The notes under the pieces were generated by a model. It saw only the letters and a program-made list of their open reading frames with translations. It searched no databases and was not told where the DNA came from. A program made the position numbers and the translations under genes. Positions 17,160-60,981 of a stretch of 64,000 nt of DNA are shown here, one piece after another (within the stretch, counting starts at the first letter, position 1; each line of letters opens with the position of its first letter). The stretch is from Caldisericum exile AZM16c01. Lineage in GTDB: Bacteria; Caldisericota; Caldisericia; Caldisericales; Caldisericaceae. The stretch covers positions 806,001-870,000 of the forward strand of contig NC_017096.1 of assembly GCF_000284335.1 (NCBI RefSeq). The letters are read 5' to 3'.

Positions 17160-17867
17160 TCACCTCACGCTCAAAGTTTTCACACTTTCTAAAAATTTTT
17201 TATATTCATCAAGTTCAAATTTTTGGATTATATAGTAGTTTAATAGATCCAGTATTTCGTTAAACTTAACAATATTTAATTTCTCTGGATAAGCCATCTT
17301 ATTTAAAAGTAAGGACTCTTCATACACAACTGCGTCAACTGTAAAACCCGAGTTTTCATTAAATCCGTTGTTCTCAAAAGAAAAATAAATTACCTTTGGA
17401 TGCTCTTGTAGAAAATTAATCGGACTTCCCAGCAATTTCATAAAGTGAAACATATAATAGAGCAAAGCAACTTTCGAGTACACGGGTTCAACAGAACTTA
17501 AGAAAGAAAGGGTTTTTAGGGTAAGATCTAAAATCTCCATATTTTCTTCCTCATAAGGGAGCAAAAGCAAAAGTAATTCCTTTATATACAAAAGAACAAC
17601 CATTTTTGAAAGATCATTTTTCGCGTCTCTAAAGTCATCAAGCATTTCTATTTCCGTTGCAATGTAAGTATTTCCTTTCTTGTATAACTGAACCTTTTCA
17701 TATACAAACGAATCAGTATAACCTGAGCGTTTTGAAGTTGATGTTCTAACGGATTTAAATTTAACATTTATTTTACCTAATTTATCAGTAAGCATCACTA
17801 CATACCTGTCGGTTTCCTTTGTATCAAACGAAGTTATTGTAAGTCCGTTAATATTTATGTAGCCCAT
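17160..17867 (-). CDS. recO: DNA repair protein RecO
   Basis: 235 residues. An N-terminal OB fold (residues 1-80) includes DKLGKINVKFKSVR and the typical YTDSFVYEKVQLYKKGNTYI stretch, followed by a helical C-terminal domain. RecO loads RecA onto SSB-coated single-stranded DNA with RecR, which is encoded here at 21002-21610. The four-cysteine zinc finger found in many RecO proteins is absent. The ATG overlaps the deoC stop (TAATG), so translation is probably coupled. Confidence 0.85.
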   Translation of the reverse strand: MGYININGLTITSFDTKETDRYVVMLTDKLGKINVKFKSVRTSTSKRSGYTDSFVYEKVQLYKKGNTYIATEIEMLDDFRDAKNDLSKMVVLLYIKELLLLLLPYEEENMEILDLTLKTLSFLSSVEPVYSKVALLYYMFHFMKLLGSPINFLQEHPKVIYFSFENNGFNENSGFTVDAVVYEESLLLNKMAYPEKLNIVKFNEILDLLNYYIIQKFELDEYKKFLESVKTLSVR

Positions 17868-18523
17868 TAAGAAACTATTTCAACACTCTTACTTGCACCT
17901 ATTCTTGTCGCACCAGCCTTAACCAATTTAACTGCAGTTTCAAAGTCTCTAATACCACCTGAGGCTTTTACACCAATATAATTCGGCACAACAGACCTTA
18001 TCAGTTGAACATCTTCAACTGTTGCGCCTCCCGTGCTAAATCCTGTTGAAGTTTTTACAAAATGAGCGCCAGCTGAAACGGAAATTGTTGATGCAATTAT
18101 TTTTTCCTCTTGGGTAAGAAGACATGTTTCGATGATAACTTTTACAGTTCTGTTTGCTGCAGTCTTAACCACTTCTCTTATGTCACTTTCAACTTTTGCA
18201 TATTCCTTCGCCTTTAAAAGGCCAATATGAATTACCATGTCGATCTCGTCTGCACCGTCTTTAATTGCCTTTTCCGATTCTGACACCTTTGCGTAAGTTG
18301 ATGAAGCACCAAGAGGAAATCCAACAACCGAAGCGATCTTTATATTAGTTCCTTTTAAAAAACTCTTCGCTAACTCAACATAGGAGGAATTAACGCAAAC
18401 TGCGAAAAAATTGTTTTCGATTGCTTCTTTACAAAGTTTTTCAATATCTGTGGGAGTGGCATCTGGTTTTAAAAGCGTGTGGTCAATAATACTTCTTAAA
18501 TAATCTTTAGAAATTTCATCCAT
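17867..18523 (-). CDS. deoC: Deoxyribose-phosphate aldolase
   Basis: 218 residues from ATG 18523; the in-frame GTG at 18532 is part of the AAGAGGTG ribosome-binding site. TIM-barrel class I aldolase: IDHTLLKPDAT at the start, the catalytic lysine in KVIIETCLL, and the Schiff-base lysine in HFVKTSTGF. GVKASGGIRD and TRIGASKSVEIV form the phosphate site. Splits deoxyribose 5-phosphate to acetaldehyde and glyceraldehyde 3-phosphate. First gene of the long run down to rpoD. Confidence 0.95.
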   Translation of the reverse strand: MDEISKDYLRSIIDHTLLKPDATPTDIEKLCKEAIENNFFAVCVNSSYVELAKSFLKGTNIKIASVVGFPLGASSTYAKVSESEKAIKDGADEIDMVIHIGLLKAKEYAKVESDIREVVKTAANRTVKVIIETCLLTQEEKIIASTISVSAGAHFVKTSTGFSTGGATVEDVQLIRSVVPNYIGVKASGGIRDFETAVKLVKAGATRIGASKSVEIVS

Positions 18524-18590
18524 GTATATCACCTCTTACATATTTTATGAATTTATAACAATTAATCAAGAACAGTTTATTGTCTAATTT

Positions 18591-19093
18591 CATATCAATA
18601 TGAAACTCTCTACACCAACTTTTGATAAAAGTGAAAAATATGTTAAAGAAAAAACCTACAAAGAGAACTAATCAGTGCTTCTTAGTTTTCTTTGAAATAC
18701 AAAGTAAAATCACCTCAATATGTATTTCTTTATAAAGAAAAACAGTCTATCCAATAAAGGATGGTATTGAGTTATTAAAAAAGATTTTAATTTCTAAATC
18801 CTTTGGAGAGTTCATAAGAAGGAAACATATAAAATAAGAAACATTACTTAATTTATCCAAAATATCAAAGAACTTTTTAATTACTTAAAAACCAAATTCT
18901 TTTTTATAAGGGTTATAGTTAATCTCAAATTAAGAAACACAATGTCATAAGAAAAATTCAAAGATTTAAATCTCCTACTTTTTACCACATACAAGTTCAA
19001 AAATTTTGAAACGATGGATTATATTTCTTTCAAAGTGTCAAATGTATGGAATTAATGCCTTCAGTTGTAAAACATTAATTTTAATGTTATAAT
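18591..19093 (+). repeat. Dispersed noncoding element, copy A (upstream of dnaX)
   Basis: The intergenic stretch between deoC and dnaX has no gene, but its plus strand matches the minus strand of 60280-60747 along nearly its whole length, with a few indels (copy A has about 30 extra bases near 18755-18795). Long identical blocks include GAAAAATATGTTAAAGAAAA, CTTAGTTTTCTTTGAAATAC, AACTTTTTAATTACT and TTACCACATACAAGTT. The similarity continues, weaker, into the dnaX -10 box. It could be a decayed mobile element, an untranslated RNA or a shared promoter-proximal regulatory region; I see no long ORF in either strand. Confidence 0.8.
19065..19093 (+). promoter_or_regulatory. dnaX promoter, predicted leaderless
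   Basis: TTGTAA (19065-19070), 17-nt spacer, TATAAT (19088-19093). The start codon follows after only 6 nt, so transcription should begin at or next to the A of the dnaX ATG. No Shine-Dalgarno is present. Confidence 0.65.
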
Positions 19094-19099
19094 TTAAGT

Positions 19100-20695
19100 A
19101 TGGAATATATTGCACTTTACAGGAAATACAGGCCCCAGACCTTTGACGAAGTAGTTGAACAAGATGCGGTTGTAAAAGTGCTGAGGGCAGAATTGAAACA
19201 GAAGAAAGTATCTCATGCATATCTATTTGCAGGACCGAAGGGGTCTGGTAAGACTACAATTGCAAGAATCTTCGCAAAGGGTCTTAACTGTGTAAATGGT
19301 CCAACCGACACACCTTGTCTTAAATGTGATAATTGTATTGCAATTACAAATGGCACGAGTTTAGATGTTATTGAGATAGATGCCGCATCAAACAGAGGTA
19401 TTGATGAAATTAGAAGTTTGAAGGAACATGTGCAGTATGTACCAGTAAATTCTAAATATAAAGTCTACATAATAGACGAAGCGCATATGCTTACACCCCA
19501 AGCGTTCAATGCACTTTTGAAAACACTGGAAGAACCTCCGCAGAACGTAGTGTTTATTCTTGCAACAACCGAGGCAGATAAGATTCCACCAACGATCTCT
19601 TCAAGGTGTGAAAGACTTTACTTCAAACCTATCAGTATAAAAAGGCTAAGTAAGAAAATAAAAGAGGTTGCACAAAGTGAAGACGTTCAAATAACTGATG
19701 CTGCATCGGAATTAATTGCAAGAGCTTCTTCTGGGTCACTTCGAAATGCCTTAAGTTTACTTGAACAGGTAATAACTGTTTCAAACAATATTGACGAAAA
19801 TATTGTAAGAAATATCCTCGATATACCCGACGAAAATTTTGTACTTAATTTTGCAAAGGCCCTTATTCAAGGTAACGTAGATTTTATATTCGATGGAATT
19901 CGTCAACTTGAAGTTTCAGGATTAGATCCTAAAATCTTCATAAATGAAATGACTGAATTCTTTGAAGACCTAATTACTCTTAAGCTAGGCGCAAGTGATA
20001 CCGTAGAAGAAAAAAGAGATGCAACTACTTTCTCAGATATGAAGGAGATCATAAAAGTAGCAACTTTAAGAAAACTTATCGAAGTTTCAAAAGTACTTTT
20101 AGAAGCCTTGAATAAAGTAAAAATTTATAAAGATCTCTACTTTGCATTGCTTGTAGAGTTTCTTGATAACTTAGGAAATTTTGAAGATAATTTAAGTGGA
20201 AAACAAAGTGTTGGAAGAGAGGATGCGTCTCAATTTATTTCTAAGGAAAAAGTTGATAAAATTATACTTGCTCAAGAAAAAAAATCATCTGAAAAAATAG
20301 AAGAGCCTGAAACACAAACTCAGGAAATAGATATCGAAAGAATTAAATACTTATGGGAAACAATTGTTAATGAAGTAAAACAAAAAAGCATCCCAGCCTC
20401 GACAATGCTTTTGAAGTCAGCGCCGGTTTCTGTAAAAGATGGCGTAATTGAAATTATCCCTGACAAACCTTTTGCTTTAAATGTTTTAAAATCAAAAGAT
20501 AACATAGAAATTTTGGAAGAAGCTTTAAAGAAAATAACTGGTAAATCGTTTAAGGTAGTTTATATTGAACCAAAGATAGAACCTAAAATAAGTAAAGAGG
20601 AAAGAATTAAAGAAATAGAGAACAAAAAAGAAATTAGAGAAATACTGGATCTATTCGAGGGAACAATAACTGATATTAAGGAGGATAAAAAATGA
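19100..20695 (+). CDS. dnaX: DNA polymerase III subunit tau (gamma/tau)
   Basis: 531 residues. AAA+ clamp-loader core: RKYRPQTFDEVVEQ, Walker A GPKGSGKTTIARI, the four-cysteine zinc module (C in KGLNC, then CLKCDNC), Walker B IIDEAHML, sensor 1 ATTEADKIPPTI and the arginine finger SSRCERL. Domain III ends near residue 370; the rest is a lysine-rich linker and a tau-type C-terminus. An A8 run at codons 393-395 could give a shortened gamma form by slippage. Predicted leaderless start. It heads the conserved dnaX-ybaB-recR cluster and overlaps ybaB by 4 nt. Confidence 0.96.
   Translation: MEYIALYRKYRPQTFDEVVEQDAVVKVLRAELKQKKVSHAYLFAGPKGSGKTTIARIFAKGLNCVNGPTDTPCLKCDNCIAITNGTSLDVIEIDAASNRGIDEIRSLKEHVQYVPVNSKYKVYIIDEAHMLTPQAFNALLKTLEEPPQNVVFILATTEADKIPPTISSRCERLYFKPISIKRLSKKIKEVAQSEDVQITDAASELIARASSGSLRNALSLLEQVITVSNNIDENIVRNILDIPDENFVLNFAKALIQGNVDFIFDGIRQLEVSGLDPKIFINEMTEFFEDLITLKLGASDTVEEKRDATTFSDMKEIIKVATLRKLIEVSKVLLEALNKVKIYKDLYFALLVEFLDNLGNFEDNLSGKQSVGREDASQFISKEKVDKIILAQEKKSSEKIEEPETQTQEIDIERIKYLWETIVNEVKQKSIPASTMLLKSAPVSVKDGVIEIIPDKPFALNVLKSKDNIEILEEALKKITGKSFKVVYIEPKIEPKISKEERIKEIENKKEIREILDLFEGTITDIKEDKK
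20277..20284 (+). other. Possible dnaX slippage site (A8 run)
   Basis: Eight consecutive A in the frame GAA AAA AAA TCA. Insertion of one extra A in the transcript, or a -1 ribosomal shift, gives ATC ATC TGA and stops after about 397 residues, close to the end of the clamp-loader domains. Position and outcome resemble the gamma-producing sites known in E. coli and Thermus dnaX; use here is inferred. Confidence 0.45.
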
Positions 20696-59909: not shown

Positions 59910-60261
59910 TGGTGGAGGCGGCGGGAGTCGAACCCGCGTCCGAGTAGGTAATCTATACTGGCAGCTACAGGCTTAGCCATTTTTTTGTTTTTCACGCTCT
60001 GCTTCCAAATGGCAGGACTCAGAGCGCATAGTCCGAGTTATTACCCTTGAATTAGGCTCGGACAACCTAACACAAGGGGCTCATGTCCCGACGTCTTGCA
60101 AATCCCATGAGCAAAGATCTTGCAAGACGGCAGCATTATCTTATGCTGCTAATGCATAACTGTAATCGGCGTTTATTTTTTAGCGGATTTTTTAGGAGGC
60201 CAACCGCTATCCTCCGCCTGCTCCAGTATACCTTACCTATCCGTCGAGCCCCAGCGCCCCC
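59910..60261 (-). ncRNA. ssrA: Transfer-messenger RNA (tmRNA)
   Basis: The 5' strand of the acceptor stem (minus strand: GGGGGCG) at 60261 pairs with CGCCTCC before the discriminator and encoded CCA at 59912-59910. The T-arm GGACGCGGGTTCGACTCCCG is intact. The tag frame reads GCC GAT TAC AGT TAT GCA TTA GCA GCA TAA, giving ADYSYALAA, the usual ALAA end and an unusual short front. The pseudoknot-rich middle is present. With SmpB it rescues stalled ribosomes. Length 352 nt including CCA. A T6 run follows the 3' end. Confidence 0.96.
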
Positions 60262-60279
60262 ATTTTAAACGCCTATTAT

Positions 60280-60747
60280 ATTATAACAAATTTTAACTTT
60301 TTTGTAGTACTTGCATGATTTCCATGCATTTAACACTTTTAAAATATAATCCATTGTTTCAAACTTTTTAAACTTGTATGTGGTAATAAGTAGGAGATTT
60401 AGGTCTATGAATTTTTCTTATAATATTTCATTTCCTGATTAGAGATTCACTATAACTTCTTCTAAAAAGAATTTGGTTTTTAGTAATTAAAAAGTTCTTC
60501 GAGATTTTGGATAAATAAAGTTATGATTCTTTTTATTTGATATGTTTCTTTTTATGATGTTCATAAAACTCTCCTAAGAATTTTTATTTGACAAACTACT
60601 TTTCTTTATACGGAAAGGTATTTTGAGGTGATTTTGTTTTGTATTTCAAAGAAAACTAAGACCACTGATTAATTCTCTTTGTAGTTTTTTCTTTAACATA
60701 TTTTTCAGTTTTATCAAAAGCGGTGTAGAGGAATTGATATTGATATA
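60280..60747 (-). repeat. Dispersed noncoding element, copy B (upstream of ssrA)
   Basis: On the minus strand this stretch matches 18591-19093 in order and orientation relative to the downstream gene, with identical blocks of 15-23 bases. It fills the gap between the tRNA genes and ssrA, contains no gene of its own, and its downstream end includes the TATAAT box that probably serves ssrA (60285-60280). See copy A. Confidence 0.8.
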
Positions 60748-60824
60748 ATAAGTAGCGTTTTAATTCTTTGTATAAATACTGTTGAGAGGATTAACTTACG
60801 AACAGAAATTCTATTAAAATAAAC

Positions 60825-60899
60825 TGGTGGAGATGAGGGGATTTGAACCCCTGACCCCATGGATGCAAACCATGTGCTCTACCGCTGAGCTACATCCCC
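60825..60899 (-). tRNA. tRNA-Ala (anticodon TGC)
   Basis: Acceptor GGGGATG pairs with CATCTCC; D-arm AGCTCAGCGGTAGAGC; anticodon loop TTTGCAT gives TGC; T-loop GGTTCAAATC. CCA is encoded. It follows tRNA-Ile by 5 nt on the same transcript. Confidence 0.97.
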
Positions 60900-60904
60900 A
60901 CCGA

Positions 60905-60981
60905 TGGTGGGCTTCTCTGGACTCGAACCAGAGACCTCGTCCTTATCAGGGACGCGCTCTAACCTACTGAGCTAGAAGCCC
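60905..60981 (-). tRNA. tRNA-Ile (anticodon GAT)
   Basis: Acceptor GGGCTTC pairs with GAAGCCC; D-arm AGCTCAGTAGGTTAGAGC; anticodon loop CTGATAA gives GAT; T-loop GGTTCGAGTC. CCA is encoded. The Ile-Ala pair is normally found in rRNA spacers, but no rRNA is present here. Confidence 0.97.

Follow-up and report, generated by a model that had tools for sequence, protein, structure and literature searches.

Two probable relics of an IS481-family derivative beside the dnaX and ssrA promoters of Caldisericum exile, and the likely insertion of their lineage 5 bp upstream of sigma70 -35 elements

Introduction

The window analysed here, a 64,000-nucleotide stretch of the Caldisericum exile AZM16c01 genome (NC_017096.1, positions 806,001 to 870,000, forward strand), contains two intergenic regions that hold the same noncoding repeat of about 500 bp. 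One copy (A) lies on the plus strand between deoC and dnaX, and the other (B) on the minus strand between a tRNA-Ala gene and ssrA, the gene for tmRNA. In both cases, the same end of the repeat faces the promoter of the downstream gene. The reading proposed here, to which we assign a probability of roughly 0.85, is that one IS481-family insertion sequence (IS) gave rise to a shortened, deleted form of which A and B are the relics, and that the lineage to which this element belongs integrates 5 bp upstream of the -35 element of sigma70 promoters, in a single orientation.

Results

When the 503 bases at 18591-19093 were compared with the whole genome (one contig of 1,558,103 bases), a single long match other than self was found, which covers query positions 2-468 at 79% identity (E 8e-107). 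This match corresponds to genome positions 866313-866746, or 60313-60746 of the window, on the minus strand; all remaining non-self matches are short, and A and B are the two copies of the deleted form found in this search. The local alignment of A and B scores 471, versus 28.8 +/- 3.4 (maximum 43.5) for dinucleotide shuffles. An earlier note, made from the sequence of the window, had described a plus-strand match to the minus strand near 60280-60747 and had said that identity no better than that of shuffled AT-rich sequence would speak against it; the match is real, and its score lies far above that of any shuffle. Similarity spans 18591-19093 on the plus strand and approximately 60275-60757 on the minus strand, and comparison with the ends of related elements places the limits of the two copies as given in Table 1. 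Similarity ends near these limits, and the flanks of A and B are unlike each other. Neither copy contains an open reading frame (ORF), and a search of 60 relatives gave short matches only.

The earlier note had also pointed to conserved blocks within the repeat, including an identical block of 23 bases. Such a block exists (we measure 24 nt), although it is no sign of function. Shuffling of the alignment columns gives a mean longest run of 20.3 nt (P = 0.2), and identity varies only mildly by region (P = 0.03). The blocks are what uniform decay leaves at this level of identity, and conservation for function was therefore rejected as an explanation for them.

To what class does the repeat belong? 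The best weak match elsewhere in the genome (L027, 105.1-105.4 kb) holds a 133-aa transposase fragment with an rve_3 integrase-core domain (PF13683, 61 bits, cut-off 26.5), and additional copies lie at 62, 70, 260 and 1445 kb. For three members, the best-matching NCBIfam family is IS481 (NF033577), with scores of 84.9 bits for L027, 132 bits for L073, an element of Chisholmbacteria type, and 191 bits for the 351-aa protein of L040, from genome G027. All three values fall under the curated cut-off of 224 bits, which suggests a divergent lineage related to IS481. No Mutator/IS256 family is found among the transposase profile matches of these three loci. The complete element is about 1.09 kb long, with ends TGWATRAGTTAC.. 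and imperfect terminal inverted repeats of the form TG..CA (TGAATAAGTTACGATACATATGAGACTC and TGTATGAGTTACATACATTTGAGACTC); relatives measure 1079-1163 bp. In this genome, L065 at 61.6-62.7 kb is almost whole but stop-ridden, with a length of 1.09 kb.

Copies A and B, which are more decayed than the other copies in the genome, can be aligned to three parts of L065, namely both of its ends and the 3' third of the transposase gene, and both lack large segments at identical places. At one of these (..CTACTT[T/A]TT followed directly by ACCACATACAAG), the IS carries about 70 more bases. The left end of A (TGTCTAATTTCATATCAATATG) matches the left inverted repeat (TGAATAAGTTACGATACATATG), and its right end (..GTATGGAATTAATGC) matches ..GTATGTAACTCATACA. 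With the L027 transposase fragment as tblastn query, pieces of the protein are legible in B (..FLGEFYEHHKKKHIK.., ..HNFIYPK.., ..EKFIDLNLLL..; E 1e-7) and less so in A (E 5e-4), where the E values come from a small database. The shared internal deletions indicate descent from one non-autonomous derivative, and A and B are best read from these alignments as copies of one internally deleted, non-autonomous IS481-family element. The earlier note could match the repeat to no known class; it can now be placed in the IS481 family, as the deletion derivative of such an insertion sequence (rve_3 domain, NF033577, alignment to L065), and the transposon relic that the note offered as one possibility is borne out by this homology, the shared deletions and the transposase codons.

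To examine how insertions of this lineage sit relative to promoters, we gathered right ends by a 22-base inverted-repeat pattern alone, yielding 31 non-redundant cases. After the right end (..TACA) come five variable bases, and TTG then follows at exactly +5 in 71% of cases, while being almost absent at neighbouring offsets. In the typical layout, a -10 element follows this -35 after 16-17 bp. The combined -35/-10 score at the +5 register is 9.19 of 12, compared to 6.00 +/- 0.21 for shuffled flanks; for left ends, which served as a control, TTG occurs at +5 in 0/14 and the score is 5.1. This first set includes a Fervidobacterium end with TTGGAA at +5. Most right ends are followed within about 200 nt by the start of an ORF in the same direction.

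The register recurs in held-out ends, mostly from other phyla (Patescibacteria, Nitrospiraceae and Thermodesulfovibrio are covered) and identified with an end motif that makes no use of the promoter. TTG is found at +5 in 12/18 of these and 0 or 1 times at each other offset from 0 to 14; L083 and L085, where the motif matches inside the element's gene, and L108 are counted among the 18 as negatives. A further 380 genomes, from another phylum, yielded four new elements whose inverted repeats are clear. These were selected on inverted-repeat score only, and each shows a TATAAT-like -10 in register (4/4); one of them has no recognisable -35. Pooling the ends gives TTG at +5 in 38/53 and a -10 with at least 5/6 matches at a spacer of 15-18 in 30/53, versus 6 at each control spacing. 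These pooled figures are descriptive and no independent test, as they contain A, B and ends already counted and leave out the three doubtful detections (L083, L085 and L108).

Within the C. exile genome, copy A is followed by CTTCAG, TTGTAA, 17 bp, TATAAT and dnaX, and copy B by AAGTA, CTACAA, 16 bp, TATAAT and ssrA. A third relic (L028, genome positions 1,444,787-1,445,013, minus strand) is followed by TCTTA, TTGACT, 16 bp, TATATT and an ORF that reads, by eye, as ribosomal protein L34 (rpmH). The common relation of both copies to a downstream promoter, as the earlier note had it, is thus confirmed, the distance from right end to gene being 41 nt for dnaX (ATG at 19100) and 51 nt for ssrA (5' end at 60261). 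A and B probably share their spacing to the promoter because the IS481 lineage inserts at such sites.

Two further remnants were seen in other genomes. In G006, a palindrome of about 50 bp (L204, ~1478-1530), in which left and right inverted repeats are almost directly joined, lies 5 bp upstream of TTGACA-16-TATAAT and is possibly the smallest relic of the element. In G011, from another genus, a short right-end remnant (L133, 1333-1400) stands in the same register to an ssrA promoter (TTGGAA-16-TATAAT), suggesting that the ssrA promoter has been hit more than once.

Intact relatives show what the five bases between right end and -35 are. Perfect 5-bp target duplications (5/5) flank L073 (TAATC), L082 (ACATC), L084 (AGCTC) and L091 (TTTGT), and also the further relatives L218 (GGTTT), L226 (CCACG) and L222 (AAATA). 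The duplication corresponds exactly to the stretch that separates the right end from the -35 position. Since the duplication fills this gap, the TTG is target DNA and lies outside the element.

Two congeners, G002 and G004, lack the element at these sites. Their deoC-dnaX gaps are short and element-free, with the dnaX -10 conserved, and G004 has TTGCAA-16-TATAAT at the same place. At ssrA, G002 has an ORF of about 2.5 kb between tRNA-Ala and ssrA in place of B, and its homology restarts at position 60302 of the window, inside the ssrA promoter. This ORF (L144, 240-2930) looks like a membrane protein by eye and is absent here, where B occupies the region (60262-60820); G004 also has an ORF ahead of ssrA. 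As the promoters are present in congeners without the element, those of dnaX and ssrA are host DNA. The earlier note had let the repeat run into the dnaX promoter and had considered a mobile promoter-carrying element. The first idea fails, because the similarity between the two promoters (TGTTATAATNTAA) lies outside the repeat and reflects two host promoters that are alike. Of the second, mobility stands, the repeat being an IS481 relic, whereas the carrying of a promoter does not. The element would have been copied to its two places, upstream of dnaX and ssrA, after the split from these congeners.

Table 1. Coordinates of the features at the two sites (window positions)
Feature	Position	Strand	Basis
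Copy A, probable internally deleted, decayed IS481-family element, right end towards dnaX	18581..19058	+	match to B, alignment to L065
Transposase codon remnant in A (..ETVYLIK..FGSEFLGEF..KKKNIK region, degenerate)	18739..18834	+	tblastn, E 5e-4
Right terminal inverted repeat of A, degenerate	19031..19058	+	alignment with right ends of related copies
Gap of 5-6 nt from end of A to -35; position of target duplication in intact relatives, none left in A	19059..19064	+	
-35 of dnaX promoter, TTGTAA, host DNA	19065..19070	+	sequence only; G004 has TTGCAA there without the element
-10 of dnaX promoter, TATAAT, host DNA	19088..19093	+	conserved in G002 and G004
dnaX (DNA polymerase III gamma/tau)	19100..20695	+	NCBIfam NF004046, 450 bits, cut-off 400
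deoC, gene on other flank of A	17867..18532	-	NCBIfam TIGR00126
Copy B, second probable internally deleted IS481-family relic, right end towards ssrA	60313..60757	-	match to A, alignment to L065
Transposase codon remnant in B	60340..60655	-	tblastn, E 1e-7 over two frames
Gap of 5 nt from end of B to -35-like hexamer	60308..60312	-	
-35 position of ssrA promoter, CTACAA, weak, host DNA	60302..60307	-	G002 homology from ssrA reaches 60302
-10 of ssrA promoter, TATAAT, with extended -10 TGT	60280..60285	-	sequence
ssrA (tmRNA)	59910..60261	-	ARAGORN; Rfam RF00023, 177.5 bits

Several other features of these regions were seen. In the operon that faces away from dnaX, deoC is directly followed by recO (17160-17867, minus strand). 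The TATAAT of the dnaX promoter ends 6 nt ahead of the ATG (19088-19100), and the spacing is 6-7 nt in two congeners; given this short gap, the dnaX mRNA is probably leaderless. Near B, a tRNA-Ile(GAT)/tRNA-Ala(TGC) pair of the kind usually found in the rRNA spacer stands isolated at 60825-60981 (minus strand), and the single 16S gene is at 541 kb. That B, which follows these tRNA genes, could be a remnant of an rRNA spacer was rejected, based on the location of the 16S gene and on the third copy being a transposon.

Discussion

In the mechanism that we propose, integration would place the right end of the element 5 bp ahead of the -35, with the intervening 5 bp serving as the duplicated target, and would always occur in the same orientation relative to the promoter. 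The promoter would be left intact, and insertion could for this reason be tolerated even at essential genes. This reading builds on observed homology, shared deletions, empty sites in congeners, a register and orientation that recur across numerous independent insertions, and the 5-bp duplications around intact relatives. From the register we infer target choice by the transposase, rather than later selection.

A number of observations weigh against this reading. The 5' 150 bases of A and B are weakly homologous to the IS; A scores 61, compared to 49.7 +/- 4.7 for shuffles, and B is not significant. Target duplications were looked for and not found at A (TTTAT/CTTCA) or at B (no match), nor at the intact copy L040, nor at most copies in the Caldisericaceae, which are old and broken. 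For B, arrival may have been accompanied by loss of the neighbouring gene, which would account for the missing duplication. The -35 of B is poor (CTACAA), and about a quarter of right ends have no TTG at +5. At least three TTG-less ends (L003, L059 and L199) carry a common CTGAAAAAG flank that resembles the end of another insertion sequence. At L003, a different transposase-like ORF follows this flank; a second insertion sequence may have hit the junction. One general caveat is that every promoter assignment made here is based on sequence only.

Could the register be a product of selection? In a compact genome, random insertions might survive only just upstream of promoters, perhaps insulating or helping them. 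The C. exile genome is indeed small (1.56 Mb), with most sites inside genes, and the ORFs that begin shortly downstream of most right ends fit this idea. Survival alone, however, would produce neither an exact 5-bp register nor a single orientation, as distant or reversed intergenic copies should persist. Moreover, the register holds to a single base in several phyla and in intact copies with fresh-looking 5-bp duplications. We therefore regard selection as unlikely. Another scenario is that the right end supplies an outward -35 (TTGACA) to a resident -10, making A and B mobile promoter parts. TTGACA-like hexamers do occur at a fixed distance past the right end, and outward -35 boxes are frequent in insertion sequences (28 are listed in a review cited in PMC9208149). 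But the inverted repeat stops at ..TACA, and the next five bases vary and equal the target duplication in intact relatives, which puts the TTG outside the element; in addition, host homology to G002 reaches the -35 position at ssrA, and G004 has its own dnaX TTGCAA without any element. Such a hybrid promoter is very unlikely, and we rejected an IS-borne -35 on the basis of the inverted-repeat end and the 5-bp duplications.

The earlier note had offered a functional untranslated element as one of two explanations; A and B would then be a structured RNA or regulatory leader serving dnaX and ssrA. In line with this proposal, the repeat precedes a housekeeping gene at both sites, in the same orientation, and both folds contain a 13-bp stem (CAAAGARAAYTAA/TTAGTTTTCTTTG). 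Yet an Rfam scan of the A/B element gave no family match, and the folding energies of the two copies are not unusual compared with shuffles (z = -1.36 and +0.60). The element yields only short matches in the 60 relatives and is absent at dnaX and ssrA in congeners, while the repeat itself contains decayed transposase codons and has lost identity nearly uniformly. A function of this kind is hardly credible. Finally, segmental duplication or gene conversion could have produced one copy from the other, as only two copies of the deleted form were found. The similarity stops near the element ends, though, between flanks that differ, and both copies stand in the usual register of the element to unrelated promoters; this origin is highly improbable.

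How does this lineage compare with known systems? Members of the IS481 family have TGT..ACA ends, a DDE transposase and duplications of 2-15 bp, mostly 6 (PMC10045372). The elements described here are similar in their best-matching transposase model, rve domain, length (~1.09 kb), TG..CA ends and short duplication, but differ in duplicating 5 bp, where most members duplicate 6 bp, and in scoring below the curated cut-off. In a literature search limited to open-licence papers, we found no report of promoter-directed insertion by IS481; no paper joining Caldisericum exile with insertion sequences was found either. TnGBS, ISLre2 and part of ISKra4, which have Mutator-type p-MULT transposases, integrate with a fixed orientation at sites that lie 15-17 bp upstream of sigmaA promoters (PMC3942029). 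Promoter-adjacent, oriented insertion is thus common to these elements and the IS481 lineage, whereas the transposase families are unrelated, the distance from the -35 is 15-17 bp versus 5 bp here, and some ISKra4-group elements have promoters on both sides. The IS1202 family (ISAjo2 type) integrates at dif, at a distance of 5 bp from its XerC site, with a single orientation and a 5-bp duplication (PMC10132070), and falls inside the IS481 family in one phylogeny (PMC10045372). However, its target is the XerC/XerD (dif/pdif) site, while the flanks here are promoters, and it is larger (1.5 kb, with a transposase of 441-457 aa). Like miniature inverted-repeat transposable elements, A and B have retained their two ends but little of the gene, show common deletions and contain no ORF; unlike them, they number only two, are strongly decayed and have no target duplication left.

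A broader claim can be made only tentatively, and we consider it less probable than not. A branch of IS481 found in Caldisericota, Patescibacteria, Nitrospirota, Thermotogota and other groups may recognise the sigma70 promoter, perhaps via RNA polymerase or sigma region 4 at the -35, and this ability may have evolved independently of the Mutator-type elements. Such a branch would be the bacterial counterpart of the Ty elements of yeast, whose integration takes place beside Pol III promoters.

The usual view of insertion sequences is that they land almost at random and break or activate genes by accident. The elements described here would combine a transposase of IS481 type with the targeting of promoters at a distance of 5 bp. 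If true, this would mean that harmless integration next to promoters has arisen by a second, independent route, in addition to that of Mutator-type elements and across several phyla. It also makes testable the question of whether the transposase reads promoter DNA or bound RNA polymerase. IS481 relics beside promoters should not be mistaken for conserved leader RNAs; rather, old right ends may mark housekeeping promoters, such as those of dnaX, ssrA and rpmH, in organisms for which there are no transcript data.
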